A stretch of DNA of 46,779 nucleotides, from positions 1-46,779 of IMG/VR virus record IMGVR_UViG_3300032118_002414; one strand, written 5' to 3'. A model generated the notes under the pieces. That model was given only the letters and a program-made list of their open reading frames with translations. It searched no databases and was not told the origin of the DNA. Positions 2,369-29,914 of this stretch are shown here, piece after piece. The DNA is from a virus. Position 1 is the first letter of the stretch. Each line of letters begins with the position of its first letter. The position numbers were made by a program, and so were the translations under genes.

Positions 2369-2654
2369 TCAAGCCCGAGGGCTCGGTGTCCGAGGAACGT
2401 TCTCTTGCGTCTCGGGTTACTTGCCTGAGATTTCGCATAACGTCATTATTCTCGACTTCCATGGCGAGCAAGTCAATAAGATGTAGGAGTTGTCTTTGGT
2501 TAATGCCAAATTTCTTTATCTCAGATACTATTTCTCTACACTCGGTCTTGTGGCGGTCTGAGAGTTTCATGTCGAGATTAGGGCGAATATAAACCTCCCC
2601 TGGCTTCTCGTCCTCAAAAAATTCCACGGGCTCTTGTTTTTTGTCCTCTGTCAT
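2352..2654 (-). CDS. Unrecognised phage protein (100 aa)
   Basis: Reads from 2654 down to 2352. The protein has an acidic N-terminus, then a helical region (residues about 30-85) with RHKTECREIVSEIKKFGINQ and a Leu-rich LLHLIDLLAMEVEN stretch, then a charged, disordered-looking tail. Its ATG overlaps the stop of the upstream gene in an ATGA, so the two are translationally coupled. It is the last gene of the minus-strand block and converges with the plus-strand gene ending at 2368. I know no function for it. Confidence 0.7.
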   Translation of the reverse strand: MTEDKKQEPVEFFEDEKPGEVYIRPNLDMKLSDRHKTECREIVSEIKKFGINQRQLLHLIDLLAMEVENNDVMRNLRQVTRDARERSSDTEPSGLIIPGR

Positions 2655-3124
2655 GTCTTGTCCGCAATCAATTCTTCTCTTGAGAAGTTAGAAAATTTCC
2701 AAAGGTCAACGCTGATTAACTGAATATACTTTCCAGACACAAGACCATCTGCTGAGTCTTTTGTCAAAATCACGGGTCGTCCCCACTGCTCATTGTCTAT
2801 GACCCACTTAAGTTCCATCCACTGGTGGAACTCAAGCGGATAGCCAGAAAGACCGTCAACGATCTTTTTAGGGATGGAGCTTTTAATTTCCTCGATTGTC
2901 AACATGGAGGAAGCTTCCTCCTTGCGGAGGATTTCGCTCAGCCCGACTTCCTTTACCTTGTGGACAACTCCACAGTTAGGACACTGTACAAGGCTTGGAA
3001 CAATAAGGGCATTTGAGTCAATCTCAGAAAATGCTATAAATTTGTGCAATGGTGGATCTGGCATCCTTCTAAATTGAAGGAGGATGCACTTGCATTGAAT
3101 CAGGTGCTTTACACATTCCCTCAT
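2651..3124 (-). CDS. Conserved phage protein with CxxC motif (157 aa)
   Basis: Start chosen at 3124 (MRECVKHLIQCKCILLQFRR) because this ATG overlaps the TGA of the upstream -1 frame in an ATGA; an earlier ATG at 3178 would add 18 unlikely residues. The protein has CKC near residue 12 and a CPNCG at about residue 50, which together could bind a metal (inference). A similar small protein with this Cys arrangement is, as far as I recall, present in other marine myoviruses without known function. The last base of its stop overlaps the next gene as ATGA. Nothing else in the block reveals its role. Confidence 0.75.
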   Translation of the reverse strand: MRECVKHLIQCKCILLQFRRMPDPPLHKFIAFSEIDSNALIVPSLVQCPNCGVVHKVKEVGLSEILRKEEASSMLTIEEIKSSIPKKIVDGLSGYPLEFHQWMELKWVIDNEQWGRPVILTKDSADGLVSGKYIQLISVDLWKFSNFSREELIADKT

Positions 3125-3518
3125 AAAAATACCAATGCCGCTATACCGAAACCAATCCCAATCAGGCCGACACTGCAAAGTACAAAAAGAGCGTATCTAA
3201 GATTTATTCTTAGGCGCTCTTTTTGGAGTTTTTTCTTTTCGGTTTCGACTCGTCGGTAAGTTGCAAAGGGTTTTCTTGCTCCGAGAACCTCGTAATTTCC
3301 ACATCCAAATTCTTCATAAAATGATCTACCTTGCCGAGATATTCGTTTTCGATAGCCATCTTATAATGGTCTAGGATTTTTTGCAATAGCACAACATCCA
3401 CGTCAACACGATTTCTGTTTGCCCACAACATAACCGAATCCGAGGCGGATTCCTTTATCATTGTTAGGAACTTAAATGTTTGACGTTCAATTGCTGTTTC
3501 CAGTCGTTTGCGATCCAT
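3121..3518 (-). CDS. Putative -1 frameshift product with transmembrane tail (132 aa)
   Basis: Residues 1-97 are those of the 102-aa protein. After the AAC codon (3230-3228) a -1 slip makes the next codon CTC at 3228-3226, giving 35 more residues: a basic stretch, then a hydrophobic helix (YALFVLCSVGLIGIG and onward to LVFL), and TGA at 3123-3121. This TGA forms an ATGA with the start of the next gene, as at many real junctions here. The -1 frame has no ATG, GTG or TTG from which the tail could start by itself. The product would be a membrane-anchored form of the same protein. Alternatives are a natural or sequencing frameshift, or a terminator hairpin and a chance frame. Confidence 0.55.
3184..3234 (-). 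promoter_or_regulatory. Putative -1 frameshift element: slippery site and hairpin
   Basis: Read on the minus strand: A AAA AAC (3234-3228) in the zero frame, three bases TCC, then AAAAAGAGCG (3224-3215), an inner pair CTAAGA (3213-3208) with TCTTAG (3202-3197), and CGCTCTTTTT (3193-3184). The outer arms match over ten pairs and the inner arms over six. The distance from the slip site to the GC-rich part of the stem is eight bases, typical of frameshift stimulators. The T-run at the 3' arm also fits an intrinsic terminator, possibly in both directions, so the hairpin may serve either role. Confidence 0.55.
3210..3518 (-). CDS. Small protein, zero-frame product of a putative frameshift gene (102 aa)
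   Basis: The protein is mostly helical (residues 1-75, with KILDHYKMAIENEYLGKVDHF) and ends in a Lys-rich tail (SKPKRKNSKKSA). It overlaps the end of the upstream YkuK-like gene by 32 bases. Codons 95-97 are AGA AAA AAC, containing the slippery heptamer A AAA AAC (3234-3228), and a strong hairpin begins three bases downstream, around the zero-frame stop. A ribosome moving back by one base would instead make a 132-aa protein with a membrane tail (next entry). The function is unknown. Confidence 0.75.
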   Translation of the reverse strand: MDRKRLETAIERQTFKFLTMIKESASDSVMLWANRNRVDVDVVLLQKILDHYKMAIENEYLGKVDHFMKNLDVEITRFSEQENPLQLTDESKPKRKNSKKSA

Positions 3519-4053
3519 GTTTTTGTCCTTTTCGTCCTCTCACTCTTTTACGAGTGTGCCTGTCTGCAATACAATTCGAGACAAAGCTTTCTGGCTTCAG
3601 TATTGCATCATACCCAGAGGAAAGTACATATCCTTTAAGATAATCACTAAAGGACGAGGAAAATTCCTTTTTCTCTGGTGTGGAGGCGTCAATGTGGACT
3701 TCCGGCTTAATGCCGGTCTTGGCCTCAAGCTCAAAGGCAAGGGCAAGGCTCTTGGTGACCTCATCCTGAAGTCTCATTTTCTGAGAACCGGCAAAGGTTT
3801 TTCTTGGCTCCAGGGTAGACTTATAGAAGTAGGTTCCGCCCTTACCCTCGTCCCACACGCAAAGTACGGTGACAAAGTGATAGTGTGCCCCATAGGAGTG
3901 GCTGTCCGTGCCAACCATTATGTGAGTAATGGTTTCGGGATTGGCTTTTTTGGCCTCAACGATTGCAAAGACCTCTTCTATGGTGTACTGTTTCGGGTCA
4001 TTTCCCTGTACCCACACGTCGGTCGTCATAGTTGTTTTATCATTTTTTGTCAT
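3487..4053 (-). CDS. YkuK-like RNase H-fold protein (DUF458)
   Basis: The 188-aa protein resembles the YkuK/DUF458 family, which has an RNase H-like fold and no firmly established substrate. Visible signatures are THIMVGTDSHSYG with Asp50 on the first strand, a following strand HYHFVTVLCVWDEG, and EVHIDAS with Asp122 near a later strand; both Asp residues would be in the acidic active-site area. The start ATG 4053 is followed by a second in-frame ATG at codon 9, so the first residues are uncertain. It precedes and overlaps the frameshift gene. A role in nucleic acid processing is an inference from the fold only. Confidence 0.7.
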   Translation of the reverse strand: MTKNDKTTMTTDVWVQGNDPKQYTIEEVFAIVEAKKANPETITHIMVGTDSHSYGAHYHFVTVLCVWDEGKGGTYFYKSTLEPRKTFAGSQKMRLQDEVTKSLALAFELEAKTGIKPEVHIDASTPEKKEFSSSFSDYLKGYVLSSGYDAILKPESFVSNCIADRHTRKRVRGRKGQKHGSQTTGNSN

Positions 4054-4070: not shown

Positions 4071-4760
4071 TTATTTATTATCTACCTTCTTATAGGTATT
4101 TGGGTGATTGTGTGTCTTGACTAGAAAGTTTGCCTTCACATAGGAGCACAAGTAATCCCTGCACATGTTTGGTCTTTGTTCGTAGATGGTACACATGCCA
4201 TTATGGACATTTAAAAACTTACAAGAAAACCTGAGCCCATTTGCCTGTATCCTTAAAATTGGGTAGCTGTCTGGGCTTTTGAAAACCGCGTGATCGTTAA
4301 AGAATGCTCTTCCTATTAGTTTGCCTTCCTCATAGTCTATCACGATGTCGTGCCTTGTCACGTTGATTCCTTTCTTCCTGAACCACTTTATCGTCTTTTT
4401 AATCCACTCCTCGTCCACAGGGCCGAGAACGTGCTCAAGGTCTTCTGGGTCAAGCTGGCAACAACCTGCCCGTAAACCCTCGACTCCGCAGCAGTTTCCC
4501 AGACAAGTCTTCTTTGCTACGTCGTTGGTGAAGTGCTGGCGCTCGCTCAGGGGTTTGGATTCCCACTGGGTTGGGTCATTTATGTAAAGGACTGGCAGGT
4601 AGAATTTATCTCGCTTTTTTTCTCCCGTGGGGGCATCTTGATCGACTTCCTCGTTTTTTTTGCTGGAAACGTTAACCTTTGGGAAAGAAACAGGCTTTTG
4701 CTGCTGCATTAAATCTTCAAGATTAAGTGATTTTCCTGTTGGTTTTATATCGATGGGCAT
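4071..4760 (-). CDS. YkgJ-like cysteine-cluster protein
   Basis: The 229-aa protein carries the Cys pattern of the YkgJ family, annotated as zinc- or iron-binding: Cys86, Cys90, Cys91, Cys100 and Cys101 in the first cluster, and Cys180, Cys190, Cys200 and Cys205 in the second (CTIYEQRPNMCRDYLC is the typical end motif). About 50 residues before the domain are Lys/Gln-rich and probably flexible. It is the first gene of the minus-strand block and lies back-to-back with the plus-strand gene at 4816, so both promoters should be in the 4761-4815 gap. Its biochemical role is not known for phages. Confidence 0.8.
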   Translation of the reverse strand: MPIDIKPTGKSLNLEDLMQQQKPVSFPKVNVSSKKNEEVDQDAPTGEKKRDKFYLPVLYINDPTQWESKPLSERQHFTNDVAKKTCLGNCCGVEGLRAGCCQLDPEDLEHVLGPVDEEWIKKTIKWFRKKGINVTRHDIVIDYEEGKLIGRAFFNDHAVFKSPDSYPILRIQANGLRFSCKFLNVHNGMCTIYEQRPNMCRDYLCSYVKANFLVKTHNHPNTYKKVDNK

Positions 4761-4815: not shown

Positions 4816-6450
4816 ATGTTAACACTTAGAGAAGAGTATAGTAGGCAAAAGGCCGAAAAGAATAAAGCGATAAACGAAGCAGCTGTCCAGTGGGTGCTGG
4901 AAAATGTATTGCTTTTGAACGAAACCTTTAATAGAGAGGCGCTCCAGAGACTTCAGGGTTCAATAATGAAGTTTGATTCTACCTTTGCTCCTTTTGCCTC
5001 CAAAGTACCCGAGGTCAAGAAGAGTCTAGACGATGCAGTAGAACTGATGAACCGCATTACCATGGGCGAAAAGGTTACTCGCTCCGATGGACGCCTGCGT
5101 TTGACGGACGAGGAAAAAGAGTCCATAAAGGAACCAGCAACCTACATGGTCAAGTACCTGTCTGTCATGTACAACAATCTGTCTCGGTTCTTCAACAAGG
5201 ACATGAAGGTCATGTTAGAGTTTCCTATTTTTAGGAAGGCCATGGAGAATCCCACAACCCCACTCAAAGACCTTGCAGAAGCAAACAGATTAAAGAAAGC
5301 TATTCTCCATGCCCTGGTTCCTTCCCCGGAATCTCAGGCAATTCTCCAGAGAATGTATCGATCCATGGACTTGCCTTCTCTCAACTACAGACAAATCGCA
5401 GATGAACTTCTAAATTTGTCAGTAAGTGACTTCAGGAAACTTACCCAGGTGGAGAAGGTTCCTCTTGTTGTGTCTGCTGAAAAAAGCACATCCCCAGTAC
5501 CAGAGGCGTCTGTTCCGGCCATGGAGGCAGCGACAAGCCCAAACCCAAAAGAACTGGATGAAGACATTGTTCTTACCGAACAGGAACAACAGCTTCTAAA
5601 AGAAATTGGTGAGGTTGATGAAAAGCAACTGAACACGGTCATTCAGGGAATCAAAAAGATTCAAGGGATAGTAACGGGAGTACCGGAACTTTCAAACCTC
5701 AACACTCAACTTCAAAATCTGCAGTCCCAGGCGCTCGCCACTGTAACGAAAGGTGGTGCTCTTTCTGGAATGAAAGGTAAGATGATAGCTGCCACAGCCA
5801 ACATGGTGTACAGTTTCTTTGATAGGCTTGGGGATCTTTATCCAAAAATTGAACCACTTCTTCCAACTGACCGTGCCATGACAGATGAGGAATTAACTAA
5901 TCTTCAAACCTTTATGACCAGAGCCCAGGGTGGCATAATGGCAAAAATTGGGAACTGGTTTAAGGCCAGATCCTTGCCTGGTCTTGCCCCAACTGAGATT
6001 GCGGCAGAAATTATAAACGTTGTCAAGGCTGGACAAAATGATCCAGCAATGGCACTGAAGGCTACCGAGTCCCTGTCGAACCTTTTCAAGCGTTTGGGCA
6101 CACTTAAATTACCACCGGCTACAACTCCACAAGGGCAACCAATTGCCGCAGGAACTCCCGCAGCGCAAGCTGCTCAGGGTACCGCAGGCGCTCAGGGTGC
6201 CGCAGGAGCCGCGCCCGCTGGTCAAACGACCGCACCTGGTCAAGCCCAAGGTTCGCAAGCCGCGCCTCCAGGTGGAGCAAGACAACAAACTCTTGCAGGT
6301 ACGGGAGCACCAGCGCCGGGAGCAGCAACAGATCCCACTGCACTTGCGGCACAAATGGCACCGATCATGGGACTTCAGCCAAATGATCCAAACGTTGTCG
6401 CTCAGGTAAAGAAGCTTGTTGATGCCGGGTGGAAGATCACTCCTCCATAA
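4816..6450 (+). CDS. Large unrecognised phage protein with Ala/Gln/Pro-rich tail (544 aa)
   Basis: I chose ATG 4816 over TTG 4801 because AGAGGA ends five bases before it. The first 400 or so residues look mostly helical, with long charged helices (for example around residues 1-60 and 85-200). Residues about 434-506 are a low-complexity Ala/Gly/Gln/Pro-rich stretch with repeated AQG and APG units, followed by a short conserved-looking end (GLQPNDPNVVAQVKKLVDAGW). There is no enzyme motif. A virion or scaffold-type protein is possible but unproven. The last 14 bases overlap the convergent chaperonin gene. Confidence 0.75.
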   Translation: MLTLREEYSRQKAEKNKAINEAAVQWVLENVLLLNETFNREALQRLQGSIMKFDSTFAPFASKVPEVKKSLDDAVELMNRITMGEKVTRSDGRLRLTDEEKESIKEPATYMVKYLSVMYNNLSRFFNKDMKVMLEFPIFRKAMENPTTPLKDLAEANRLKKAILHALVPSPESQAILQRMYRSMDLPSLNYRQIADELLNLSVSDFRKLTQVEKVPLVVSAEKSTSPVPEASVPAMEAATSPNPKELDEDIVLTEQEQQLLKEIGEVDEKQLNTVIQGIKKIQGIVTGVPELSNLNTQLQNLQSQALATVTKGGALSGMKGKMIAATANMVYSFFDRLGDLYPKIEPLLPTDRAMTDEELTNLQTFMTRAQGGIMAKIGNWFKARSLPGLAPTEIAAEIINVVKAGQNDPAMALKATESLSNLFKRLGTLKLPPATTPQGQPIAAGTPAAQAAQGTAGAQGAAGAAPAGQTTAPGQAQGSQAAPPGGARQQTLAGTGAPAPGAATDPTALAAQMAPIMGLQPNDPNVVAQVKKLVDAGWKITPP

Positions 6451-7846
6451 CGACAGCGCCGTTACTTGAGTAAATCATCAAGGCTTGTTTTCCACAAATG
6501 TTCAGGGCAAGGAATGCCGACAAGGAAGAAACCTTGTCTGGGAAATCTTCCTTTAGTGCCTCAAGACTTGACAGAATCGCACGTCGCAGAGGGGTGCCCT
6601 TGTCCCCAAGTTTAAATTTCTTAACCACGTCCGGCATGGTAATCAAACCATTGTTTAAGATGGACTTAGTAGACCTGAGGCATGTGTCAAACTTGGTTCT
6701 CACTGTTTGATTTTCTATTGCGGTTATTGTAGGGAGTCGGATAATGACCGACTCAGAGGTAAGGGACTTGATACGTTCATCAATGAGGGCTACAACATCT
6801 TCAAGGTTTTGATTGTCGAGTCGTTTGCTAAGAAGATGTTTTACCTGAGAGGTCACTTGATTTCTAGTCTTGTTTTCCTCGATGGAAATTAAGTTTGTCA
6901 TGCATCTAACCTTCTGAATGCTTGGTAAGTTCTCCCACTTAACAAAACAAACCAACTCTCCCTTAAGAGAAGACACAATGTCGGTACCGCACACGCTTGC
7001 TATGTCATTTAGGATATTGATGGATTCCAAGTCAGAGTTTATTCTTACTGGTATAATGTCAAGTATTCCTCTGTCGAAATTTGCCTTGAGGGTGGCAACT
7101 ATCTCCTCCGAGAATCCCCTGGCAACAATCATCCCCGGCTGCTTTGTGGCAAGGGCGCCGTTCAAAAGTTGATCTATTTCCGAGACCTGCTCTAGAACAC
7201 CGTCAACCAACAAAACTCTAACGTTTTGTCTTTCCCAGGAATTGCTGGATGCGTCCATAAAGAACTTGAAAGGTTTGGTTTTGAAGTTGTATCCCGTTTT
7301 TCTTTCAATAACATAATTGCTCTGCCTGCCGTTTTCGATATAGATTTTCCCTTCCAGGCCAGCAACCTTTATAGCCTCAAACACAACCTTGGCCACCAGG
7401 GCATCCCCACATGTGTCCGATATCTGTTTCCAAAGGTCTTCGATAGTTGGTACCTGATAAGTTTCTTGGATTATATTACCCAGAACAAGCAAAATATCAT
7501 CATATTCCCTCAACAGCGCCGTGTCTGGTTGGTTTCTTAACTCTCCTGTTATCAACAAGCTCCTCAGCAGGCCCACAGAGAAGTGTAGCCCTAGGATGGC
7601 CGATCCACCAGCCAAGGACTCAGCCTGCAACAAGGAGCGTCCTAGGAGCTTGTAAAACCCTCTTTCCAGAGGGGTGGTTGGCTTGAGAAGTTTTCCGATC
7701 AAATGCAACGTGTTTGCGTCAATTGAGATCAGGTCTTCGGTCAAAAGAGATGAGATTTTATTATATTTGTCAGAAAGTGTGGAAAGCGCCCCACTAATGT
7801 CTTTTTGAAATTTTTCTCGGTCAATGTAAGTTGTTGAGTCTGGCAT
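6437..7846 (-). CDS. Divergent GroEL/Hsp60-like chaperonin
   Basis: The 469-aa protein follows the domain order of GroEL: an equatorial part, an intermediate segment GDALVAKVVFEAIKVAG and GKIYIENGRQSNYVIERKTG (residues about 148-186), an apical domain with VRVLLVDGVLEQ and QPGMIVARGFSEEIVATL, and a returning equatorial part. GroEL folds other proteins in an ATP-driven double ring; phage versions may help fold virion proteins. It is shorter than GroEL (about 545 aa), and LAGGSAIL (78-85) stands where DGTTT of the ATP site is expected, so ATP hydrolysis may be lost or altered. No GroES is visible nearby. Fold assignment is by motif comparison only. Confidence 0.75.
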   Translation of the reverse strand: MPDSTTYIDREKFQKDISGALSTLSDKYNKISSLLTEDLISIDANTLHLIGKLLKPTTPLERGFYKLLGRSLLQAESLAGGSAILGLHFSVGLLRSLLITGELRNQPDTALLREYDDILLVLGNIIQETYQVPTIEDLWKQISDTCGDALVAKVVFEAIKVAGLEGKIYIENGRQSNYVIERKTGYNFKTKPFKFFMDASSNSWERQNVRVLLVDGVLEQVSEIDQLLNGALATKQPGMIVARGFSEEIVATLKANFDRGILDIIPVRINSDLESINILNDIASVCGTDIVSSLKGELVCFVKWENLPSIQKVRCMTNLISIEENKTRNQVTSQVKHLLSKRLDNQNLEDVVALIDERIKSLTSESVIIRLPTITAIENQTVRTKFDTCLRSTKSILNNGLITMPDVVKKFKLGDKGTPLRRAILSSLEALKEDFPDKVSSLSAFLALNICGKQALMIYSSNGAVVMEE

Positions 7847-17581: not shown

Positions 17582-18626
17582 AACTAAATAGTTTGACTAT
17601 AAGAGCGTTTTTATCTACCCACAGTACAGTGAAGTAACCTCCAGGTTAGATGTGGACACAAGTATATCTCTTAAAGATAATCTCTTTGATGAAAATTGTC
17701 CCGTCTTGCGTCTGGGGGTTCCGGTTATATCCGCGAACATGGACACAGTAACGGACGGACGGATGGCAATTGCCATGTCCAGGGCAGGAGCCCTGGGGGC
17801 GATACATCGCTTCATGTCTATCGAACAGAATATTCTTGAGTTTGAGATGACCAAGGCCGAAGGATGTGAGTGTTTTGTTTCTCTAGGAGTCAACAGCGAC
17901 TCTCAGGAGAGGGCAGAAGCTCTCTTTTTTAAGGCGAAGGCCAGGAACTTCATAATCGACATAGCTCACGGGCACTCAAGAATGATGAAGGACATGATTG
18001 GGTGGATGCGGGGCCGATTTGGAATATATGCATATATCATGGCCGGGAATGTGGCAACACCCGAGGGCGCTCTCGACTTATTTGACTGGGGCGCAGATGC
18101 CGTTAAGGTGGGAATTGGTCCTGGGGCTGTCTGCACCACAAAGAACATAACAGGCGTAACGGTACCTCAGTGGTCTGCCGTGGCCGAGGTCTGCTCCCCT
18201 AAGAATAGAGCCAAATATAAACATATTCTGATAAACAATCAAAAAAATAACGGCAACAAGATTCCGGTGTTGGTTGCAGATGGCGGAATACAGGAGATAG
18301 GCGACATTGCCAAGGCTCTAGGTGCTGGGGCTGACTTGGTTATGTGTGGAAGGCTTTTTGCAGCCTGCTGTGAGGCTCCAGGACCCCGTATCAACGGAAA
18401 GAAGGTCTACCGTGGTATGGCAAGCAGAGATGCCATGCTGTCCATTAAGGACTCCTCCGTGTTGCCCACGCCGGAGGGTATCTCAACCGTTCTTGATGTC
18501 TTGGATGAGTCCGTAGCTCAGGTGATAGGTCACATAAAGGGTGGTCTCCAGAGTTCTATGTCCTATTCTAACGCGAGGAATCTTGTGGACTTCAAGGCGA
18601 CTGCAAGATTTGGAGTTAGGGGATGA
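17578..18626 (+). CDS. GMP reductase/IMP dehydrogenase-like enzyme, N-terminal frame disrupted
   Basis: The open frame from GTG 17652 (324 aa) shows the family: [38 protein letters not shown], and the catalytic loop [12 protein letters not shown] with Cys161 of that frame. The -PQWSAV- after the loop favours GMP reductase, but IMPDH is possible. The usual N-terminal strand ([15 protein letters not shown]) is encoded upstream in the same frame, beyond which a TAG (17589-17591) blocks any start. ATG 17578, coupled to the previous stop by ATGA, begins MKLNS in the neighbouring frame; one missing base near 17592 would join the two. So the given extent assumes an indel or sequence error. It would balance purine nucleotides, perhaps GTP for GDP-sugars. 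Confidence 0.7.
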
Positions 18627-20308: not shown

Positions 20309-20361
20309 AACTATCAGGATACACAACCACGCGAAACTGCGTCTCAAAGGTGAAGAAATGA
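20305..20361 (+). pseudogene. 18-codon relic duplicating the start of the next glycosyltransferase
   Basis: ATG 20305 overlaps the previous stop (ATGA), and its TGA (20359-20361) overlaps the start of the next gene (ATGA). Its product MKLSGYTTTRNCVSKVKK closely matches the N-terminus of that gene (MIKLSGYTTVRNGISMDYPF). The simplest reading is the stump of a tandemly duplicated GT2 gene, lost by deletion while both coupled junctions survived. It might still serve as a translated leader. Confidence 0.6.
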
Positions 20362-21359
20362 TAAAATTAAGTGGGTACACGACAGTTCGCAACGGGATTT
20401 CCATGGATTACCCGTTTAGGGAATCCATCCAATCTCTTATTGACTTTTGTGATGAGGTGGTCGTTATGGACTCCTCTGACGGGACCGACAACACCCGGGA
20501 AGTTCTAACCAAGATGGAAAAGGCTAACAAGGGTAAGCTATTTGTCTATCACGCGGAGATGGACTGGAAAGCTCCTAATCACGGAGTTTATGACGGGGTG
20601 CTTAAGCAGGCAGCCAGAGAAAAATGTACCGGAGAATATCTTTGGCAGATGGACTGCGATGAGGTAGTTCATGGAACCGACCGCAAGATTCTAGATAGTC
20701 TTATTGTCCAGGCTGGTGGCCTGAACGAAGTTCCCTTACTGTGCCTCCCGGTCGTGGAGTATTGGGGCGGGCCTGACAAAGTTAGGGTGGACATTAATCC
20801 GTGGAAGTGGAGAGTTTCCAGAAAACATCCAGAAATTGTACACGGTATTCCAATTACTCACAGACAAGTAGTAAACGGCTTAGTTTACGCAAAGCCCGGC
20901 ACGGATACTTGCGACTACATTATCAAGAGCCAGGGTCTTCCTGTACCAAATCTCAATTTCATAAACTCTCAAATCGAGACCATGAGGCAAGCTTCCTTGA
21001 AGGATCCAGCTGCCCTCGCCAACTATGAGAAATGGTTCAACCAAATGAGTTTTGGTTTGCCGACCGTTTATCATTTCTCCTGGTACAGCATCAAGAGCAA
21101 AATTTACAAATACAGAGATTTCTTTGGCACTTTCTGGAAAGCCATGTATAATGATGACCGTGCCAACAATGTGTTTTTTGATGTTCCTTGGGATCAGGTA
21201 ACTGACGAGATGATAGATGCCAAGGCCAAGGAACTTAGAGACGGTACTGGCGGGTGGATTTTTCATAGTCCCTGGAACGGCTCTAGTATCCCGCATGTCA
21301 ACATTGAAAGAAAACCACCAGAGATAATGAATGATTGGTGCTCCAAGCATCCTCTATGA
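20358..21359 (+). CDS. GT2-family glycosyltransferase (333 aa)
   Basis: The N-terminus KLSGYTTVRN leads into a GT-A fold: a strand EVVVMDSSDGTDNT (nucleotide-binding) and YLWQMDCDEVVH (about residue 100), the metal-binding D-x-D. It adds a sugar to an acceptor; donor and acceptor cannot be read from the sequence. The long C-terminal half (residues about 130-333) with many Trp and His is typical of phage GT2 proteins with an acceptor domain. It begins by ATGA coupling to the 18-codon relic and ends by ATGA coupling to the epimerase. Confidence 0.8.
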   Translation: MIKLSGYTTVRNGISMDYPFRESIQSLIDFCDEVVVMDSSDGTDNTREVLTKMEKANKGKLFVYHAEMDWKAPNHGVYDGVLKQAAREKCTGEYLWQMDCDEVVHGTDRKILDSLIVQAGGLNEVPLLCLPVVEYWGGPDKVRVDINPWKWRVSRKHPEIVHGIPITHRQVVNGLVYAKPGTDTCDYIIKSQGLPVPNLNFINSQIETMRQASLKDPAALANYEKWFNQMSFGLPTVYHFSWYSIKSKIYKYRDFFGTFWKAMYNDDRANNVFFDVPWDQVTDEMIDAKAKELRDGTGGWIFHSPWNGSSIPHVNIERKPPEIMNDWCSKHPL

Positions 21360-22312
21360 GAAAAAACTCCTCGACCAGAAAAACTGCACTCGTCACGGGT
21401 GGTGCCGGATTTATTGGCTCCCACGTCGTTGACTTGTTGGTAAACAGGGATTGGTCGGTGACTGTAGTTGATGACCTGTCGGCTAATGACTTTCAGAGAC
21501 CAGAGTGGACAAACCAAAGAGCCTCATATATTTTTGAAGATTTTGTATCCAAGAATATTTGTAATCTCATCAAGCAAAAGGAATTCGATTTCATTTTTCA
21601 CCTTGCCGCAAAGCCCTCTGTCCCGTGGAGTGTAGAGAACCCGTTTGAGTCACACAAAACTAACGTATTTAAAACCCTCCAGCTTTTGGAAACCTGTAAA
21701 GGCAATATCAACAGATTTATATTTTCTTCTAGTTCGGCAGTTTACGGAAACGTTTCTGGGCAGGCGGATGAGTTCTTTGATGAACCAACTCCGCTTTCAC
21801 CATATGCCTTGCAAAAGCTTGAGATAGAACAATATCTTGAGTTATTTAAAAACCTGTATGACTTTGACTATGTGGCGCTCAGGTATTTCAACGTCTATGG
21901 TCCAAGACAACTAGGCGGAAGTCCTTACTCAAACGTTATCTCGTCCTGGCTGCACAACATTAAAACCAACAAGCCTTGTAGGCTTGACGGGGACGGCTCT
22001 CAAAAGAGAGATTTTATATATGTGGAAGATGTTGCCTCCGCCAATCTGGCTGGGGCACTTGCCAGCATTTCAAGGGAGCAAGACAGAGTTTTTAACATAG
22101 GTTCTGGAGAAAACAAATCTTGTGCTGAAATTCTAAAAATGCTAGAGGCTTTCGACCTTAAGTTTGAAACTGTCCAAGCTAGTGTTCGTGTTGGGGACGT
22201 GAAGACAACCCTTGCCAATGTTAACAGGGCCAATAGGGTCTTGGGGTGGCCGATTAAAATGCACGCAATTGACGAGGGAATTATCAAAACTCTAAAGTGG
22301 TGGAAGTTATGA
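21356..22312 (+). CDS. NAD-dependent sugar-nucleotide epimerase (GalE-like)
   Basis: ATG 21356 (ATGA with the previous stop) gives 318 aa. TGGAGFIGSH at residues 14-23 is the NAD-binding Gly motif. The catalytic set is present: SSSSAVYG with the Ser around 126, and SPYALQK with Tyr150 and Lys154. The size and motifs are those of extended SDR epimerases such as UDP-glucose/UDP-GlcNAc 4-epimerases, which would give UDP-Gal or UDP-GalNAc. The exact substrate is not decided by sequence; a dehydratase or UDP-glucuronate-type epimerase is possible. Ends by ATGA coupling to a glycosyltransferase. Confidence 0.85.
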   Translation: MRKNSSTRKTALVTGGAGFIGSHVVDLLVNRDWSVTVVDDLSANDFQRPEWTNQRASYIFEDFVSKNICNLIKQKEFDFIFHLAAKPSVPWSVENPFESHKTNVFKTLQLLETCKGNINRFIFSSSSAVYGNVSGQADEFFDEPTPLSPYALQKLEIEQYLELFKNLYDFDYVALRYFNVYGPRQLGGSPYSNVISSWLHNIKTNKPCRLDGDGSQKRDFIYVEDVASANLAGALASISREQDRVFNIGSGENKSCAEILKMLEAFDLKFETVQASVRVGDVKTTLANVNRANRVLGWPIKMHAIDEGIIKTLKWWKL

Positions 22313-23127
22313 ACAAGACGCAAGATAAATGTACCGCTATTGTATTTTCGAAAAATAGACCAATGCAGCTTTTTGCCTTGCTGGAGTCGATGTTCAAGAA
22401 CACGAACATGGCACAGGAAAATGTTAATGTCCTTTATAAGGCCGACCATGATTTCATTTGGCCAATGGAGCAAGTAAAGCAAAGTTACCCAGGGGTAATA
22501 TTTCATCCTGAATATGACTTTAGGGAACAGACAAATCAAATTGTGGCCAACGCCAATCCTTATGTTGTTTTCTTTACGGACGATGATGTTTTTAAGGAGA
22601 AAGTAGATTTTGATCTTGTTGTCAATTTCCTCGGCCTCAATTTCTCTGTGTTCTGTTTTTCCTTACGACTTGGCAAGCATCTAAGCTATTGCTATTCCAC
22701 ACAATCTCAGCAGAACATTCCTAGTGGTGTGACCAAGGAGCCATTTTTTATATGGTCCTGGAAGGGAACGGACTGGGATTGGAATTATCCTCTTTCGGTA
22801 GATGGTCATGTCTTTCGCAAACAAGACATCACAATTGCCCTTGCCAAGGCCGGAGATTGGCGTTCGCCAAATACCCTGGAGGGCAACATGTCCCATCTTC
22901 ATCCCGGAATTCCATCCCCCCAAATGGCCTGCTTCACCACAAGCAAGGTTTTCAACATTCCACACAACCGTGTACAAAGTGAAGTTCAGAACATATTTGG
23001 AGGCGGTTCCGAAAACGACCTGCTTAAACTTTGGAACGAAAACAAGAAAATAGACATCACAACATTTCAGGGCATTAAAAACAAATCTGCTCATCAGCTT
23101 GTTTCGCTTACGTTAACGGAGAGATAA
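22309..23127 (+). CDS. Glycosyltransferase-like protein, GT-A type (272 aa)
   Basis: Start ATG 22309 is coupled to the epimerase stop; the longer frame from GTG 22297 is less likely. VFSKNRPMQLFALLESM near the N-terminus and PYVVFFTDDDVF (about residues 86-97) resemble the start and D-x-D region of GT-A glycosyltransferases. The C-terminal half includes WSWKGTDWDWNYPLSVDG. Assignment to a CAZy family is not possible by eye. It is in the middle of the glycan genes, which supports the call. Confidence 0.65.
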   Translation: MNKTQDKCTAIVFSKNRPMQLFALLESMFKNTNMAQENVNVLYKADHDFIWPMEQVKQSYPGVIFHPEYDFREQTNQIVANANPYVVFFTDDDVFKEKVDFDLVVNFLGLNFSVFCFSLRLGKHLSYCYSTQSQQNIPSGVTKEPFFIWSWKGTDWDWNYPLSVDGHVFRKQDITIALAKAGDWRSPNTLEGNMSHLHPGIPSPQMACFTTSKVFNIPHNRVQSEVQNIFGGGSENDLLKLWNENKKIDITTFQGIKNKSAHQLVSLTLTER

Positions 23128-23835
23128 ATGAAAACGGCAGTATTATTGCCCGTTTATAACGGGGCTAGAACTATCGAAAGAGCAATTAAGTCGTTATTAG
23201 CTCAAACTTATAGAACGTGGAGGTTGGTTCTTGTCGATAACAACTCCACGGATGACACCGTAAAAATCGTTAAACAACTCATGGAAACGGCTGGGCTGGA
23301 GTGGACCTTGTTGGTCTGTAAGCCCTCTGGGATCGTTCCAGCCCTCAACAGGGGGCTTTTTGAGATCATGGGCCGGGAAGTAGACCTGGTTGCAAGATTG
23401 GACGCTGATGACGCCTGGTATCCACACAAGCTTGAAAAGCAGGTTGCCTTTATGAAAGAACATGCAGACGTTTATGTTCTTGGTACTCAGATCACAAGAG
23501 TTGACCCACAAAACTTTAATCCTGTATCACAACAAGTAAAGTACCCAACCGACAATATAGACATAAGAAAAATGTTATTTTCTGGCAATAATGCCATAGC
23601 TCATCCTTCTGTGGTTTTTAGGCCAGAGGTTATTCTAAGGACTGGCGGATACGACAACACTTATCCTATCGCAGAGGATTATCACTTGTGGCTTAAGGCG
23701 GCAGGTTGGTTTAATTTTGCAAATCTGGAAGATATTCTTGTGGACTATACAGTTACCCATAACCCAAAATATAATCCAAAGTGCCCACAGTTGTGCTGTG
23801 TCTCGATGAGAACGGCACTTGAACAACTACACTAA
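23128..23835 (+). CDS. GT2-family glycosyltransferase (235 aa)
   Basis: ATG 23128 follows the previous TAA directly. This is the clearest GT2 in the block: MKTAVLLPVYNGARTIERAI, then LVLVDNNSTDDT, then DLVARLDADDAWYPHKLEKQV with the D-x-D at residues 92-94. The length matches a single catalytic GT-A domain. GT2 enzymes invert the anomeric configuration using nucleotide sugars. Donor and acceptor are unknown. Its stop is nine bases before the next ATG. Confidence 0.9.
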   Translation: MKTAVLLPVYNGARTIERAIKSLLAQTYRTWRLVLVDNNSTDDTVKIVKQLMETAGLEWTLLVCKPSGIVPALNRGLFEIMGREVDLVARLDADDAWYPHKLEKQVAFMKEHADVYVLGTQITRVDPQNFNPVSQQVKYPTDNIDIRKMLFSGNNAIAHPSVVFRPEVILRTGGYDNTYPIAEDYHLWLKAAGWFNFANLEDILVDYTVTHNPKYNPKCPQLCCVSMRTALEQLH

Positions 23836-23843
23836 GAAAAGTC

Positions 23844-24287
23844 ATGGCAAAAGAACACAAATTTGATTTCATATATCCCAGGCTAAGAGCCCAGGCTCCT
23901 GCTGGCAAGTGGAAGAATTTAAAGTTTGGTGGAAGAATTACAGAAACCTGGGGGAATGGTCTTTGGAGCGATGAACCTAGGAGAGTAAAACTCCTAGAGG
24001 CATCCGTGAGATTTGCAGATCCAGACTTCGACTGCTGTGCAGAACTTAGGGTAAAGTTTGACACAAAAACGTGGAACCCAGACAAACACGGACTTATCTA
24101 CACGGACAGAAATTGGATTAAGGACCTTAGAAAAATCTTGGTTAAAAAAGGCTTTTCGGAAAAAGCCGCCAAGGACGTGGACTATTCTGAACAGGGAATG
24201 CAGGGAGACAATTATGTTTCCTTGGATATTGGAAAAAAGTTCCTGAAAGAATGGAAAGAGAAAAAGCTTACCGTTTCAGAGGTATAA
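23844..24287 (+). CDS. Unrecognised conserved-looking protein (147 aa)
   Basis: ATG 23844 (MAKEHKFDFIYPRLRAQAPAG) gives a basic, mixed alpha/beta protein with a Cys-Cys (FDCCAELRVKF) in the middle and a Lys-rich C-terminus. No membrane segment or catalytic motif is seen. It is flanked by a glycosyltransferase and a methyltransferase within one transcription unit, so an accessory role in glycan work is possible, but other unrelated small genes also sit in this block. Function unknown. Confidence 0.65.
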   Translation: MAKEHKFDFIYPRLRAQAPAGKWKNLKFGGRITETWGNGLWSDEPRRVKLLEASVRFADPDFDCCAELRVKFDTKTWNPDKHGLIYTDRNWIKDLRKILVKKGFSEKAAKDVDYSEQGMQGDNYVSLDIGKKFLKEWKEKKLTVSEV

Positions 24288-24289
24288 AC

Positions 24290-24892
24290 ATGACAGAGCG
24301 ATTTAATCAAACTTGGTGGGATAAAAACCTTGGACAGAAATTTGGAGAGTTCAAGAATTGGATTGGCGACTTTAATGCCGAGTCCAAGGTCTTTGTAAGG
24401 AACCATGTACGTCAACAGGGCTATAAGACCCTGGCGGACTTTGGGTGTGGTCCGGCAACTGAATATTTTGGCTACAAGAACGATGGATACGAAATCCACT
24501 ATATGGGGATTGATTCCTCCTGGGTGCTATATAGCCACGCCACAAGTCAGGGTGTGCCCGTGTTGCACTCTGCCGTTGAGGAAGTTCCAGTTCCAGACTC
24601 TTCGTTTGACGTATCCTTCTCCAGACATGTTCTGGAGCACTTGCCCACATTCAGAGAATGCCTTGGGGAAATGATTCGTACCGGCAAGAAGGAAGTTATA
24701 AATATCTTCTTCATCGAGCCAACAGAAGAGGCAGAGAAAATTGACTTCTTTGTGCCAGACCAACTCTATCATAACAGGTATAACAAAAAGGACATAGAAA
24801 GCTTTTGTCTTGCAAATCCAAAGGTTCTTTCTCTTCGCTGGGAAAGAGTCAACACAAAAGAAACTGTCCTGTTCCTGTCCCTAAAGGAATAA
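24290..24892 (+). CDS. SAM-dependent methyltransferase, class I (200 aa)
   Basis: ATG 24290 (MTERFNQTWWDKNLG) lies two bases after the previous stop; the longer frame overlaps that gene. Motif I of class I methyltransferases is LADFGCGPATEYF (about residues 46-58), followed by YMGIDSSWVLY, the acidic residue of strand two, and then SFDVSFSRHVLEHLPTF, typical of Methyltransf_11 proteins. It transfers a methyl group from S-adenosylmethionine; sugar O-methylation is an inference from the neighbouring genes. It stops one base before the GT6 gene. Confidence 0.85.
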   Translation: MTERFNQTWWDKNLGQKFGEFKNWIGDFNAESKVFVRNHVRQQGYKTLADFGCGPATEYFGYKNDGYEIHYMGIDSSWVLYSHATSQGVPVLHSAVEEVPVPDSSFDVSFSRHVLEHLPTFRECLGEMIRTGKKEVINIFFIEPTEEAEKIDFFVPDQLYHNRYNKKDIESFCLANPKVLSLRWERVNTKETVLFLSLKE

Positions 24893-24893
24893 A

Positions 24894-25598
24894 ATGTCCC
24901 ACAAAATTGGCTTGTTGGTAATTGCAACCAACAAGTATATTCAGTTTGTTCCTCCTCTTTGGGAATCGGTCAAAAAGCACTTTCTAATAGATCAGGATGT
25001 CACAATGTTTGTCTTTACCGACAAGGGAGACGAACTGAGAAGTATGATTGGACAGGAATCTCAGATAGAGATTTTGGCCCAACAACACATGGCCTGGCCA
25101 GGTTCGACCCTTTTCAGATATAACATCTTCAACTCTGCCTCCTCCGCCCTGGAGAAGATGGACTATCTTTTTTATTGTGATGCGGACATGTTGTTTGTTG
25201 ACTCCGTGGGAGCAGAAATACTTGGGGATCGCGTTGGAACGATCCACCCCGGGTTCTTTGACAAGCCCAGGGCGGCGTTCACATATGAAACGAATCGAGC
25301 CTCCAAGGCTTTTGTAGCGCCCTCAGAGGGTAGCGTGTATTATGCCGGGGGATTCAACGGGGGCAACAAGACCGAATATCTTCAAATGTGCAAGGTTCTT
25401 TCCGATAATATTGCGGCCGACTACAGGCATGGGACCATAGCCGTGTGGCATGACGAGTCACACCTGAACAGGTATTTTATAGATAACCCACCTACGGTAT
25501 CCTTGTCGCCAAGTTATTGCTATCCTGAATCATGGGACTTGGCCTTTACGAAAAGACTCTTAGCCTTGGACAAAAACCACAAGGAGATGCGGGCATGA
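24894..25598 (+). CDS. Family 6 (ABO blood-group type) glycosyltransferase
   Basis: The 234-aa protein carries the GT6 signatures: GLLVIATNKYIQFVPPLWES at the start, YLFYCDADMLFVD with D96-A97-D98, YYAGGFNGG (139-147), and WHDESHLNRYF (185-195), which corresponds to the acidic active-site motif of human A/B transferases; Glu188 is the equivalent of their catalytic Glu. GT6 enzymes transfer Gal or GalNAc alpha-1,3 to a galactose, often a fucosylated one, with retention. The D-x-D, as in vertebrate enzymes, points to metal dependence. It lacks the vertebrate N-terminal membrane anchor. The same cluster makes GDP-fucose and probably UDP-Gal/GalNAc. Coupled by ATGA to the next gene. Confidence 0.85.
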   Translation: MSHKIGLLVIATNKYIQFVPPLWESVKKHFLIDQDVTMFVFTDKGDELRSMIGQESQIEILAQQHMAWPGSTLFRYNIFNSASSALEKMDYLFYCDADMLFVDSVGAEILGDRVGTIHPGFFDKPRAAFTYETNRASKAFVAPSEGSVYYAGGFNGGNKTEYLQMCKVLSDNIAADYRHGTIAVWHDESHLNRYFIDNPPTVSLSPSYCYPESWDLAFTKRLLALDKNHKEMRA

Positions 25599-26434
25599 AA
25601 ATTTTGGTATTGGGTGGTAATGGAATGCTTGGTCATGTGGTTGTGAAGTATCTTGTTTCTATGAATCATAATGTCACGTTTACTGTCAGGGATGAGGTTC
25701 CACGTTGGATGCCTCTTACAAAAGCCGTTGGAATAATGAAATTTAATGCCACCGGCAAGATCCCGGACTTAACAGGATATGACTGGGTTATAAATTGCAT
25801 TGGAAATATCAAGCAAAAGACAATATTAAAGCCTATTGATTTTTATCAAATCAATTCGATCTTTCCTTGGAAGCTTGCCCTCGCCTGTAAGAAGGCGACA
25901 GTAAAGATGGTTCATGTTTCTAGTGACTGTGTGTTCTCTGGTACAAAGCCCGCGCCGGAGGAATATAGTCCGATGGACAAACTTGATGCCGACGATGATT
26001 ATGGCATGTCAAAAGCCCTTGGAGAATGTTCTGAGGCTGTTGTCATTAGGACCAGTATTATTGGACCTTCTGAGATTCCTTATGGATTATTTGAGTGGTT
26101 TAGAGCACAAAAGTATGAAGTGACCGGATACAACAATCATATTTGGTCAGGTGTTACGACTCTTTTTCTGGCGCAGTTTATTGAAAAATTAATAACAAGC
26201 TCGGATCTTCTCCTGCCGGAGGAAGGCGGGCTTATTCAGTTAGCTTCTGGGCCAGTTACAAAGTTAATGCTTCTTGCACTCATAAATGACGTTTTTGACC
26301 TTAAACGGGTCATTAATGAAACTCCGGCACCAGTTGCCATCAACAGAACTTTGGTACCTAGCGTCAAACTTGCCCCAGACATTCACTCCCAATTGGTAGA
26401 GCTTAGAAATTGGATGGCGGTAAACAATGAGTAA
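25595..26434 (+). CDS. RmlD-like SDR sugar-nucleotide reductase (279 aa)
   Basis: ATG 25595 overlaps the GT6 stop (ATGA) and gives MKILVLGGNGMLGHVV, the NAD(P)-binding motif of RmlD-like reductases. VHVSSDCVFSG and DDYGMSKALGE provide the Ser and the Tyr-x-x-x-Lys pair, and NHIWSGVTTLFLAQ is the substrate-side region typical of the family. RmlD itself reduces dTDP-4-keto-rhamnose; other members act on UDP-2-acetamido sugars. No RmlA, B or C is visible here, so a reductase paired with the CapD/PseB-like protein is at least as likely. Ends with an eight-base overlap with the next gene. Confidence 0.8.
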   Translation: MKILVLGGNGMLGHVVVKYLVSMNHNVTFTVRDEVPRWMPLTKAVGIMKFNATGKIPDLTGYDWVINCIGNIKQKTILKPIDFYQINSIFPWKLALACKKATVKMVHVSSDCVFSGTKPAPEEYSPMDKLDADDDYGMSKALGECSEAVVIRTSIIGPSEIPYGLFEWFRAQKYEVTGYNNHIWSGVTTLFLAQFIEKLITSSDLLLPEEGGLIQLASGPVTKLMLLALINDVFDLKRVINETPAPVAINRTLVPSVKLAPDIHSQLVELRNWMAVNNE

Positions 26435-27314
26435 TAAATTAGTAAAAATCTATAGTGTTCACTATAATCGCCCAGAGTTTATCAGGTGGCAGATAATGTG
26501 TCTTAACAAATTTCTCAAGGATACCTTTGAGTATATCGTTATAAATAACGCCAGAGAGCAGGCAATGAGAGATCAAATAACTCTCACGGCAGACTCCCTT
26601 GAGGTGTCTGTTATTCACACTCACTCTGACACGCCTTTTCACCTTGCGGGCAAACACCACGCAGATTCTCTAAACTCCGTGTGGAAAAGCCACATGACCA
26701 AGGACAAGGGCTGTTATGTGATGTTTATGGACGGTGACTGCTTTCTGGTTGCTCCATTCTCGGTGAATGAGTACATGGCCGGAGATGTAACCTTTGGGGG
26801 CTCTAAGCAACAAAGGGACCACATTTATCACTATCTGACTCCAGTGATTGTCATGGCGAACATTGACCTTCTTCCAGAACCAGAAATAATCAACTGGGAA
26901 GGTATCGGAATAAACAATACCAGACTTGATACCGGCGGAGGTCTACACCTGTACCTGGAAAAATATCCAGAAGTAAAGGCCAAGATTAAAGCCATGCACA
27001 ACACCTGGCACATCAAGCCAGAGAACAAGAACATGCACTGTCTTCCCGATAGTCTTGTGGCCGAGTACGATCCCGAGTATCACCTGGAGTTTTTTGGTAA
27101 TGAGTTTCTTCACTACTGTCGGTCTAGCAATTGGGACCATCAGGCGGCGGCACATCATCAGGCAAAGTCCGATTTCGTAGGCAAGTTTATCAACAATGCA
27201 ATTCAGGCAGCTTACGACAATCCTCTGCTTAGTGGCAAGTTTGGGGAAAAAGCCAAGGAACATAACTTCCAGATTCCAATCGACACATATTTTGGATGGG
27301 GGAAGTGGTCTTGA
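26427..27314 (+). CDS. Glycosyltransferase-like protein, GT-A type (295 aa)
   Basis: ATG 26427 starts eight bases inside the previous gene. KIYSVHYNRPEFIRWQ and CYVMFMDGDCFLVAPF (D-x-D-like DGD around residues 101-103) point to a GT-A fold. LDTGGGLHLYL and a His-rich section near the end could line the acceptor site. There is no clear CAZy family by eye and no membrane segment. Position in the glycan cluster supports a transferase. It ends just inside the next gene. Confidence 0.65.
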   Translation: MSNKLVKIYSVHYNRPEFIRWQIMCLNKFLKDTFEYIVINNAREQAMRDQITLTADSLEVSVIHTHSDTPFHLAGKHHADSLNSVWKSHMTKDKGCYVMFMDGDCFLVAPFSVNEYMAGDVTFGGSKQQRDHIYHYLTPVIVMANIDLLPEPEIINWEGIGINNTRLDTGGGLHLYLEKYPEVKAKIKAMHNTWHIKPENKNMHCLPDSLVAEYDPEYHLEFFGNEFLHYCRSSNWDHQAAAHHQAKSDFVGKFINNAIQAAYDNPLLSGKFGEKAKEHNFQIPIDTYFGWGKWS

Positions 27315-28339
27315 GATTCAATGATGAATGTTCGGTAATTTCCGAAAAGAAACTATTGATTTTCGGCGGGGCCGGTTCCTTGGGAAACTGTCTTGTTGAC
27401 TACTATAAAGACATTGCTGAAGAAATAATTGTGGTTTCCAGGGATGAGGCAAAGCACTGGGAACTCAAAAACAAATTCAAGATATCAAATCTTAAAACCA
27501 TTATATGCGATGTTCGTGACCCAAGAAGGGTCTCTCAGATTCTCAGGTCTGAAAATCCAACAAATATCATTATTGCTCAGGCGCTAAAACAGGTAGACAC
27601 CTGCGAGAATCAACCTTCCGAGTCCATAGATACCAATATTTTGGGTGTTCGAAACATTATCGACGCAATAGAAGAAAACTCGTTTCGTCAAGACAACAAG
27701 ATAGAAAACGTTTGTTTCGTGTCCACCGACAAGGCATGTAACCCTATCAACGTCTATGGAATGTGCAAGAGCATTTCCGAGAAGATGATTTCGGCTGTCG
27801 CCAAGAACAATACCGTAAAATACGTTACCACCAGGTATGGTAACGTTATTTCTTCCAAGGGCAGCATCGTTCCACTATTTCTTAAACAGTCTAAAGAAAA
27901 TAAGTCCTTCACCGTTACTGACCCCGAGATGACCAGGTTTATGATGCTTCTGGAGGAGTCCGTCAGACTTATTGATACCGCAATGACGTATGGAAATTCT
28001 GGCAGTTTGTGGATTCCAAAGCTAGACTCATTTAATGTCATGGATCTTGCTATGTTTTTCTCTGAACGGTACAACAAGCCGGTTGAGATTGTTGGGGTAA
28101 GACCGGGAGAAAAGATTCACGAGATTTTAATGAACGAAAGCGAAGACGCCTTTAGGAAAGAGCATTTCCAAACCTTCGTTATAAATCACGGAACAGAAAC
28201 AAGACGACTTGGTGCAATAGAATACTCTTCCAAGGATCACGTTATTTCCCGCGAGGAACTGAAGTCCCGAATGGAAGAATTTTTAGAAAGAGATTCATAT
28301 GTCAAAAATTTTCGAAAAGGTAGTCGTTTGGGGTCATAA
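27311..28339 (+). CDS. CapD/PseB-like UDP-sugar dehydratase (SDR)
   Basis: Start set at TTG 27311 (TTGA overlap, GGGGGAAG just upstream); ATG 27296 is the alternative (347 aa). LLIFGGAGSLGNCL is the cofactor motif. FVSTDKACNPINVYGMCK holds the Ser/Thr, Asp-Lys and Tyr-x-x-x-Lys features of the inverting 4,6-dehydratases of the CapD/FlaA1/PseB group, which act on UDP-GlcNAc as the first step to modified acetamido sugars. DPEMTRFMM and VGVRPGEKIHE are further family motifs. The long transmembrane part of full CapD is absent, so it is soluble as in PseB. Overlaps the next gene by 41 bases. Confidence 0.85.
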   Translation: MRFNDECSVISEKKLLIFGGAGSLGNCLVDYYKDIAEEIIVVSRDEAKHWELKNKFKISNLKTIICDVRDPRRVSQILRSENPTNIIIAQALKQVDTCENQPSESIDTNILGVRNIIDAIEENSFRQDNKIENVCFVSTDKACNPINVYGMCKSISEKMISAVAKNNTVKYVTTRYGNVISSKGSIVPLFLKQSKENKSFTVTDPEMTRFMMLLEESVRLIDTAMTYGNSGSLWIPKLDSFNVMDLAMFFSERYNKPVEIVGVRPGEKIHEILMNESEDAFRKEHFQTFVINHGTETRRLGAIEYSSKDHVISREELKSRMEEFLERDSYVKNFRKGSRLGS

Positions 28340-29237
28340 GCTAAGAGACGCCAGAACCTCCAATACCTTTGCCTTCATCCATGATTCTTGGTATCGCACT
28401 TTCAAGTACATGGGGTATGATGTTCTGTGGCTAGATAACGACGACGACGTTTCACAACTCTCCTTTGAGAATTGTTTGTTCTTTACAGAGGGGCAAGTTG
28501 ACTCAAAAATACCCATTGTTGCTTCTGCCAAATATGTTGTTCACAACTGTAACTTGGATAAATATAGGAAGATTCTTGCAAATGTCCTTAATCTCCAAGT
28601 CTACACTCACGACTGTCTGTCCAGGGACATTAGTCCCATAGATGTCTCCCAGTATGCCTTCTATCAAAAGGAGGCAGATTTCTCTCGGGCGGACCACTGC
28701 TGCGACAATAGGACGATATATCAGCCCTGGGCAACAAACCTCTTGCCGGATGAGATCGACCTGGATAAACCCATTGCCAGCCAATATCCCCGCCAGAAGA
28801 GACTCTTTTGGATAGGAAGCATTATGGGCGGTCCCCACAGAAACGATGATAAAATCTCGGAACTTGTTATAGCATGTAAGGTAGACGGGATTCAGTTCAT
28901 TCACGCAAAGCTCCAGAATGACCTCCAGCCACGGGCTATAGCCGAGTCCTGGATAGCCCCGGCAGTACAGGGTACCTGGCAGGTTGACAAGGGCTATGTG
29001 CCTTGTAGGGTCTTTAAAAACCTATCCTTCGGGAGGATGACACCAACCAATTCCTTGACGGTCAATACACTCTTTGGGGGAAAACTGCCATATTCCTCAG
29101 ACGTACAAGAAATGTACAAGCTGGGCACAGCCTGGGAAAACAATCCTGACCCAAAGTTGCTCCGCGAGCTTATGCTCCTGGTGAAAGAAAAGCACACGTT
29201 CGTTAACCGGATTAACAATATTTTGAAGGTACTATAA
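28299..29237 (+). CDS. Putative glycosyltransferase, GT-B-like (312 aa)
   Basis: ATG 28299 (MSKIFEKVVVWGHKLRDARTS) lies 41 bases inside the dehydratase gene. KRLFWIGSIMGGPHRNDDK in the middle and FKNLSFGRMTPTNSLTVNTLFGG in the C-terminal half resemble the second Rossmann domain of GT-B enzymes, where the nucleotide sugar binds. There is no clear EX7E or GT family motif, so the assignment rests on layout and neighbours. A role such as fucosyl transfer cannot be shown. Its stop overlaps the next start by one base (TAATG). Confidence 0.55.
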   Translation: MSKIFEKVVVWGHKLRDARTSNTFAFIHDSWYRTFKYMGYDVLWLDNDDDVSQLSFENCLFFTEGQVDSKIPIVASAKYVVHNCNLDKYRKILANVLNLQVYTHDCLSRDISPIDVSQYAFYQKEADFSRADHCCDNRTIYQPWATNLLPDEIDLDKPIASQYPRQKRLFWIGSIMGGPHRNDDKISELVIACKVDGIQFIHAKLQNDLQPRAIAESWIAPAVQGTWQVDKGYVPCRVFKNLSFGRMTPTNSLTVNTLFGGKLPYSSDVQEMYKLGTAWENNPDPKLLRELMLLVKEKHTFVNRINNILKVL

Positions 29238-29914
29238 TGGAAAAATTTGGATATTTTAAACCCTCCGACCCACAGCTTCCGGGTTTGAAATTTGGAAACT
29301 GGGGTTCTAGACCTTATGAGTATTTTTGGACCGCCATGGTACACAACGTTAAGAATCAGGACATTCTTGACATTGGTACCGGATTACCCTCGGAGCACAA
29401 CTGGCATGAGTTTGTCAGGGATCAACTAAAGCCCTCAAGTTATGTTGGTATAGACTTTGACGGCAGGTTAAAGGATGAGGAGATTAATGACGAACACCAC
29501 AAGGTTTTGTGGATGGACGCCACCAGGCTGGAACTAGAAAGCAATTCTATTGACGTTGTTTATTCTATCTCAACTTATGAACATATAGATAATCTCCCGG
29601 CCTTCGTTTCCATTCTGGAAGAGTGTCACAGGGTTCTTCGTCCGGGTGGAAAAATGATTGTAACCCTGGATGAATATTGGGATTGGAAAAGGCAAGACTG
29701 CCTGCCGTGGAACGAGCTTGAGCGTGCTTATGTGAGGTCTGGAAAAAGATTTCAAGAACGCTCTTATGGTATGCGCGATTTCGCGAACGACATAGCACAT
29801 ATATTTAAACCTCTTGGTGAAGTTCCCGTCAAGAATAATGCGGATGGTTCCTTGCTCTACAGTCCGACATATAATGACTGCATTAGTTATGGTATTTTTG
29901 AGGTAGTAAAATGA
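29237..29914 (+). CDS. SAM-dependent methyltransferase, class I (225 aa)
   Basis: ILDIGTGLPSEHNW is motif I (about residues 40-53), YVGIDFDGRLKDEE provides the acidic end of strand two, and VVYSISTYEHIDN with RPGGKMIVTLDEYWDW shows the typical Methyltransf_11 C-terminal strands. It is the second methyltransferase of the glycan block and precedes the GDP-fucose synthesis gene by ATGA coupling. The likely substrate is a sugar hydroxyl or another glycan-linked group (inference). Complete, with no missing motif. Confidence 0.85.
   Translation: MEKFGYFKPSDPQLPGLKFGNWGSRPYEYFWTAMVHNVKNQDILDIGTGLPSEHNWHEFVRDQLKPSSYVGIDFDGRLKDEEINDEHHKVLWMDATRLELESNSIDVVYSISTYEHIDNLPAFVSILEECHRVLRPGGKMIVTLDEYWDWKRQDCLPWNELERAYVRSGKRFQERSYGMRDFANDIAHIFKPLGEVPVKNNADGSLLYSPTYNDCISYGIFEVVK

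Follow-up and report, generated by a model that had tools for sequence, protein, structure and literature searches.

A putative -1 frameshift that would add a conserved membrane tail to a small helical-hairpin protein in a clade of uncultivated phages

The small gene, its neighbours and the -1 frame

The window, as we call the whole 46,779-nt stretch of viral DNA that was analysed, carries on its minus strand a 102-aa gene (3210..3518; ATG at 3518, TAA at 3212-3210). Its start overlaps by 32 nt an upstream gene (3487..4053, minus strand) whose product matches the Pfam family RNaseH_like (PF04308, E 1.3e-22), and it is followed by a 157-aa gene (2651..3124, minus strand) without a named family, which encodes HLxxCxCxLxQF and CxxC motifs. 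The 102-aa protein had no significant Pfam or PHROG match, and protein and DNA searches of the collections used returned no match in named phages; bacterial genome contigs gave no match either. The 157-aa protein belongs to a family (KHLxxCxCxLxQF, CxxC) with no fewer than 86 members on viral contigs, but it too matched nothing in named phages and was assigned to no Pfam or PHROG family at a significant level.

Several other features of the contig were recorded. A gene at 4071-4760 (minus strand) has a weak match to the CxxCxxCC family (PF03692, under the curated cut-off), and the order of this gene, the RNaseH-like gene and the 102-aa gene is conserved in two related loci, L001 and L009. In the same neighbourhood, a 469-aa protein (6437-7846, minus strand) matches a chaperonin GroEL PHROG (phrog_5725, E 5e-22), and locus L020 encodes a similar-looking protein upstream of its homologue of the 157-aa gene. 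By eye, from translations only, we also noted a long series of sugar epimerase-, glycosyltransferase-, and methyltransferase-like proteins (20358-34537, plus strand) and a protein resembling IMP dehydrogenase or GMP reductase (17652-18626, plus strand).

In the -1 frame relative to the 102-aa gene, a tail of 47 residues counted from a CCCTTTG sequence (ATYRRVETEKKKLQKERLRINLRYALFVLCSVGLIGIGFGIAALVFL; 3121..3264, minus strand) extends beyond the 0-frame stop. Continuing past an A AAA AAC heptamer described below, this frame encodes LQKERLRINLRYALFVLCSVGLIGIGFGIAALVFL up to the TGA at 3123-3121, which lies within an ATGA and overlaps the ATG (3124) of the 157-aa gene. A membrane helix is predicted at approximately 3124..3198 (minus strand; highest 19-residue Kyte-Doolittle mean 2.46). 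A preliminary description of this DNA had claimed such a helix, a stop within the ATGA that opens the next gene, and the lack of a start in this frame, and all three hold: in the window, no ATG, GTG or TTG lies ahead of the helix, which rules out an internal start for the tail there.

For the 0-frame protein, AlphaFold2 (40 aligned sequences) predicted two long helices, at residues 3-35 and 42-82, with a mean pLDDT of 84.6 and low confidence from residue 86, right after the candidate slip site at 83-85. The predicted protein is a helical hairpin followed by a disordered, basic C-terminus; Foldseek comparison of this simple fold to PDB and BFVD found nothing significant. Because the predicted domain ends at the slip site, the two C-terminal ends, frame-0 and -1, would alternate behind one folded domain.

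Distribution and coding constraint of the -1 tail

The first relative found, L001, is a 320-kb viral contig encoding a protein 85% identical to that of the window. Compared with the window, its -1 tail, KNLQKERLSTKLRIALFVLGGIGLVGIGFLSALLLL, lacks 3 nt through an in-frame deletion, and it ends in the same ATGA overlap; since L001 carries the same arrangement, an artefact of a single assembly is unlikely. Using the 157-aa downstream gene as the query, we collected 80 loci, and the small gene as the query added four further tailed loci (L090, L091, L094, and L095); every sequence was assembled from a metagenome and comes from an uncultivated phage. In tailed loci, the -1 frame enters before the 0-frame stop, carries a hydrophobic helix, and ends near or overlapping the start of the next gene.

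An iterated profile identified 51 upstream homologues among these loci. In eleven, 43-151 nt separate the homologue from the gene that follows, and a hydrophobic -1 tail was present in all 11; in the other 40 this gap is 2-33 nt, and none has a tail. The tailless homologues are approximately 8-20% identical to the window protein, with homology supported by synteny and by the iterated profile, which gives optimistic E-values. In a tree of the downstream gene built by a quick method, the tailed loci formed one clade of 17 rows (SH-aLRT 99). The tail was found in 17/17 loci of this clade and in 0/40 homologous loci outside it, so the conservation in related phages that was proposed as a check on the preliminary description is borne out, and one gain of the tail is the simplest reading. 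The only apparent exception in the tree was L054, a locus truncated by the end of its contig; the part that is left does carry the -1 tail and a C CCA AAC heptamer.

Selection was assessed in three independent close pairs, window/L001, L011/L014, and L016/L090. Approximate counts for the -1 frame past the 0-frame stop gave pS of 42/74.5 compared to pN of 38/234.5 (Fisher p 4.6e-11), and differences by -1 codon position were 26/11/43 (binomial p 1.4e-4). Where both frames are coding, pS was 0.15-0.22, compared to 0.61-0.77 upstream. The trio L091/L094/L095 was less clear for L091/L094, a pair with few changes, in which pS and pN past the stop were both 0.04. Judged from these substitution patterns, the -1 frame past the 0-frame stop is under purifying selection.

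Candidate slip sites, stimulators and other explanations

The preliminary description placed the shift at A AAA AAC (3228..3234, minus strand), which is indeed in the -1 slippery phase at codons 95-97 (AGA AAA AAC, 3234-3228). It overlooked A AAC CCT TTG (3264..3273, minus strand), which is also in phase, lies 39 nt upstream, and contains C CCT TTG (3270-3264) at codons N83, P84, and L85. The window has 64 in-phase XXXYYYZ heptamers in 13,170 codons, roughly one per 206, so a heptamer alone is not remarkable, and what is remarkable is its conservation. The -1 frame of the window is open for 32 codons ahead of CCCTTTG and by itself therefore permits either site.

Comparison of the loci separated the two candidates. 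A AAA AAC was shared by the window and its nearest relative, L001, and by no other tailed locus. In contrast, A AAC CCT TTG does not vary among ten loci with protein identities of 36-85% (window, L001, L009/L015, L016, L090, L011, L014, L091, L094, and L095), an outcome expected from synonymous choice alone in 1.5-4% of cases per lineage, and it is unchanged between the window and L001 despite a pS of 0.77 upstream. Every tailed relative has an in-phase heptamer, and divergent ones have another XXXYYYZ at or near the same point, in phase in all of those tabulated. L012 has GGC CCT TTG, so that C CCT TTG is retained; L036 and L044 have A AAC CCT ACT, L013 and L088 have C CCA AAA, L054 has the C CCA AAC given above, and L023 has A AAA AAA, located further upstream. 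The limits of the open frames also bear on the position of the shift. The -1 frame becomes open just 2-5 codons ahead of the site in L001, L014, L091, L012, L036, and L044, with L036 and L044 at two codons. In L014, four codons of open -1 frame precede CCCTTTG and the stop of frame 0 follows 16 nt after it, so the shift must occur there. As read from these alignments, C CCT TTG is most likely the slip site, and A AAA AAC is probably not the ancestral one.

For stimulators, stems starting within ~10 nt of the heptamer were compared to 100 dinucleotide shuffles in fifteen loci. The stem beat at least 96 of the 100 shuffles in nine loci (L015, L011, L014, L091, L094, L095, L012, L036, and L044), some of which are close relatives and hence represent fewer independent events. 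The same regions are paired in L011 and L014, with a compensatory change. By this test, nothing stood out behind the heptamer in the window, L001, L016, L090 or L023; close behind CCCTTTG, 84/100 shuffles were as good for the window and 34/100 for L001. Shine-Dalgarno-like sequences upstream of the site were present in some loci and were dropped as a general stimulator because they are not conserved. Some shift sites of tailed phages work without stimulators (PMC5009743), and both C_CC.U_UU.G and A_AA.A_AA.C are among 18 motifs that gave more than 0.10% frameshifting without stimulators in E. coli (Sharma et al. 2014, PMC4066793). Such efficiencies may not apply in the hosts of these phages.

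Because the window and L001 lack a strong stem close behind CCCTTTG, A AAA AAC may still act in this lineage together with the hairpin CAAAAAGAGCG...CGCTCTTTTTG (3183..3225, minus strand), as a possible second or replacing site. As the preliminary description had it, this hairpin lies just after A AAA AAC: it begins 2-3 nt on and has 11 bp plus an inner 6-bp stem. It is a possible stimulator or a terminator-like element. Its arms are conserved in L001, where the inner stem is also kept, but not in other relatives. A real frameshift that in the window occurs at A AAA AAC, with CCCTTTG as an ancestral leftover, would give a product differing only in the ~12 residues before the membrane helix. 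The strong hairpin directly behind the heptamer in both genomes speaks for this version, as do the shiftiness of the same motif in E. coli and the example of L023, which shows that the site can move. However, A AAA AAC is absent in all other tailed relatives, and the unchanged A AAC CCT TTG in the window and L001 also argues against it. The usual spacing between a heptamer and its stimulator is 5-9 nt, and the 2-3 nt spacer here is shorter. We consider a shift confined to A AAA AAC in the window doubtful.

Slippage of RNA polymerase rather than of the ribosome could also make a fused mRNA, and the A6 of the window and L001 and the A7 of L023 would suit it. However, CCCTTTG, CCCAAAC, and AAACCCT contain no long homopolymer and the constraint tracks codon phase, making this explanation very improbable. 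Slightly less credible still is the alternative raised in the preliminary description, that the hairpin serves as an intrinsic terminator where the gene ends; the hydrophobic -1 frame would then be chance or a relic. The region 3225-3183 does have the shape of an A-tract, stem, and T-tract, and a T5 is present, but the T-run lies inside the stem and coding carries on in the -1 frame, which is under purifying selection past the stop and ends at the next start codon. In addition, L015 and L012 have their stems at other positions and without a T-run, and tailless homologues have only 2-33 nt in that gap. Finally, a sequencing or assembly indel in the homopolymer A6 within the overlap, splitting one ordinary gene with a membrane helix, is already contradicted and scarcely conceivable, as the same split recurs in 17 loci from many metagenomes with different sequences and 0-frame stops at different places.

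Proposed mechanism, precedents and significance

From the comparative evidence, we consider it highly probable that programmed -1 frameshifting makes a tail-anchored version of a soluble helical-hairpin protein. The central proposal of the preliminary description, a -1 frameshift adding a membrane tail, is thus strongly supported by the conserved tail, the selection on the -1 frame, and the clean split between tailed and tailless loci; the conserved site is A AAC CCT TTG and not the A AAA AAC it named. Most ribosomes would stay in frame 0 and make the ~100-aa soluble protein, while on C CCT TTG, part of A AAC CCT TTG, a minority would move back by one base around codons 84-85. These ribosomes would terminate in the ATGA at the start of the next gene, and their product would be the same helical hairpin extended by a basic linker and, at the C-terminus, a membrane helix. 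In the window, A AAA AAC and the hairpin may supplement this slippage or have replaced it. We infer that the shift takes place at an efficiency that keeps the extended form in the minority, that this form inserts into the membrane, and that the two forms meet in mixed complexes. The anatomy of the gene and the precedent of lambda G/GT suggest that the likely purpose is a fixed minority of membrane-anchored subunits, which would hold the soluble protein at the inner membrane.

Frameshifts described in tailed phages are mostly found in genes for tail chaperones, capsid or tail proteins. In the phage lambda G/GT tail assembly chaperone, a low-level -1 slip produces short and extended forms in a set ratio (PMC5009743). 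The locus described here resembles it in having a candidate -1 slip site close to where a small phage gene ends, whereas the extension is a membrane helix and that of lambda is the soluble T domain. The small gene has no recognised tape measure gene beside it, the downstream 157-aa and 100-aa genes having neither tape measure similarity nor a recognised family, and there was no significant Pfam or PHROG match to lambda-type chaperone families. In gene 10 of phages T7 and T3, a -1 slip near the gene end gives a C-terminally extended minor form of the capsid protein (PMC5009743). The position of the slip and the C-terminal extension are alike, but gene 10 encodes major capsid proteins whose extensions are part of the particle, while the protein here is a small non-capsid helical protein that would gain a membrane anchor. 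Arterivirus nsp2TF, a -2 frameshift product with an alternative transmembrane region and another compartment (PMC5009743), is similar only in outcome, in that the frameshift product carries a transmembrane region; it belongs to an animal RNA virus, and its -2 shift is stimulated in trans by a protein. Our search of open-access papers turned up no description of phage frameshifting by which a small protein acquires a membrane helix.

More tentatively, a conserved -1 frameshift may fix the ratio of soluble to membrane-anchored helical-hairpin protein throughout this clade of large phages, as a membrane counterpart of the ratio control in lambda G/GT; the slippery sites would change or be relocated, and the relation between the frames would be preserved. 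If true, recoding would be tied to membrane placement, in a gene family without a cultured example in the collections searched. The five different slippery heptamers in one gene would form a natural series in which the exchange and migration of slip sites can be tested.
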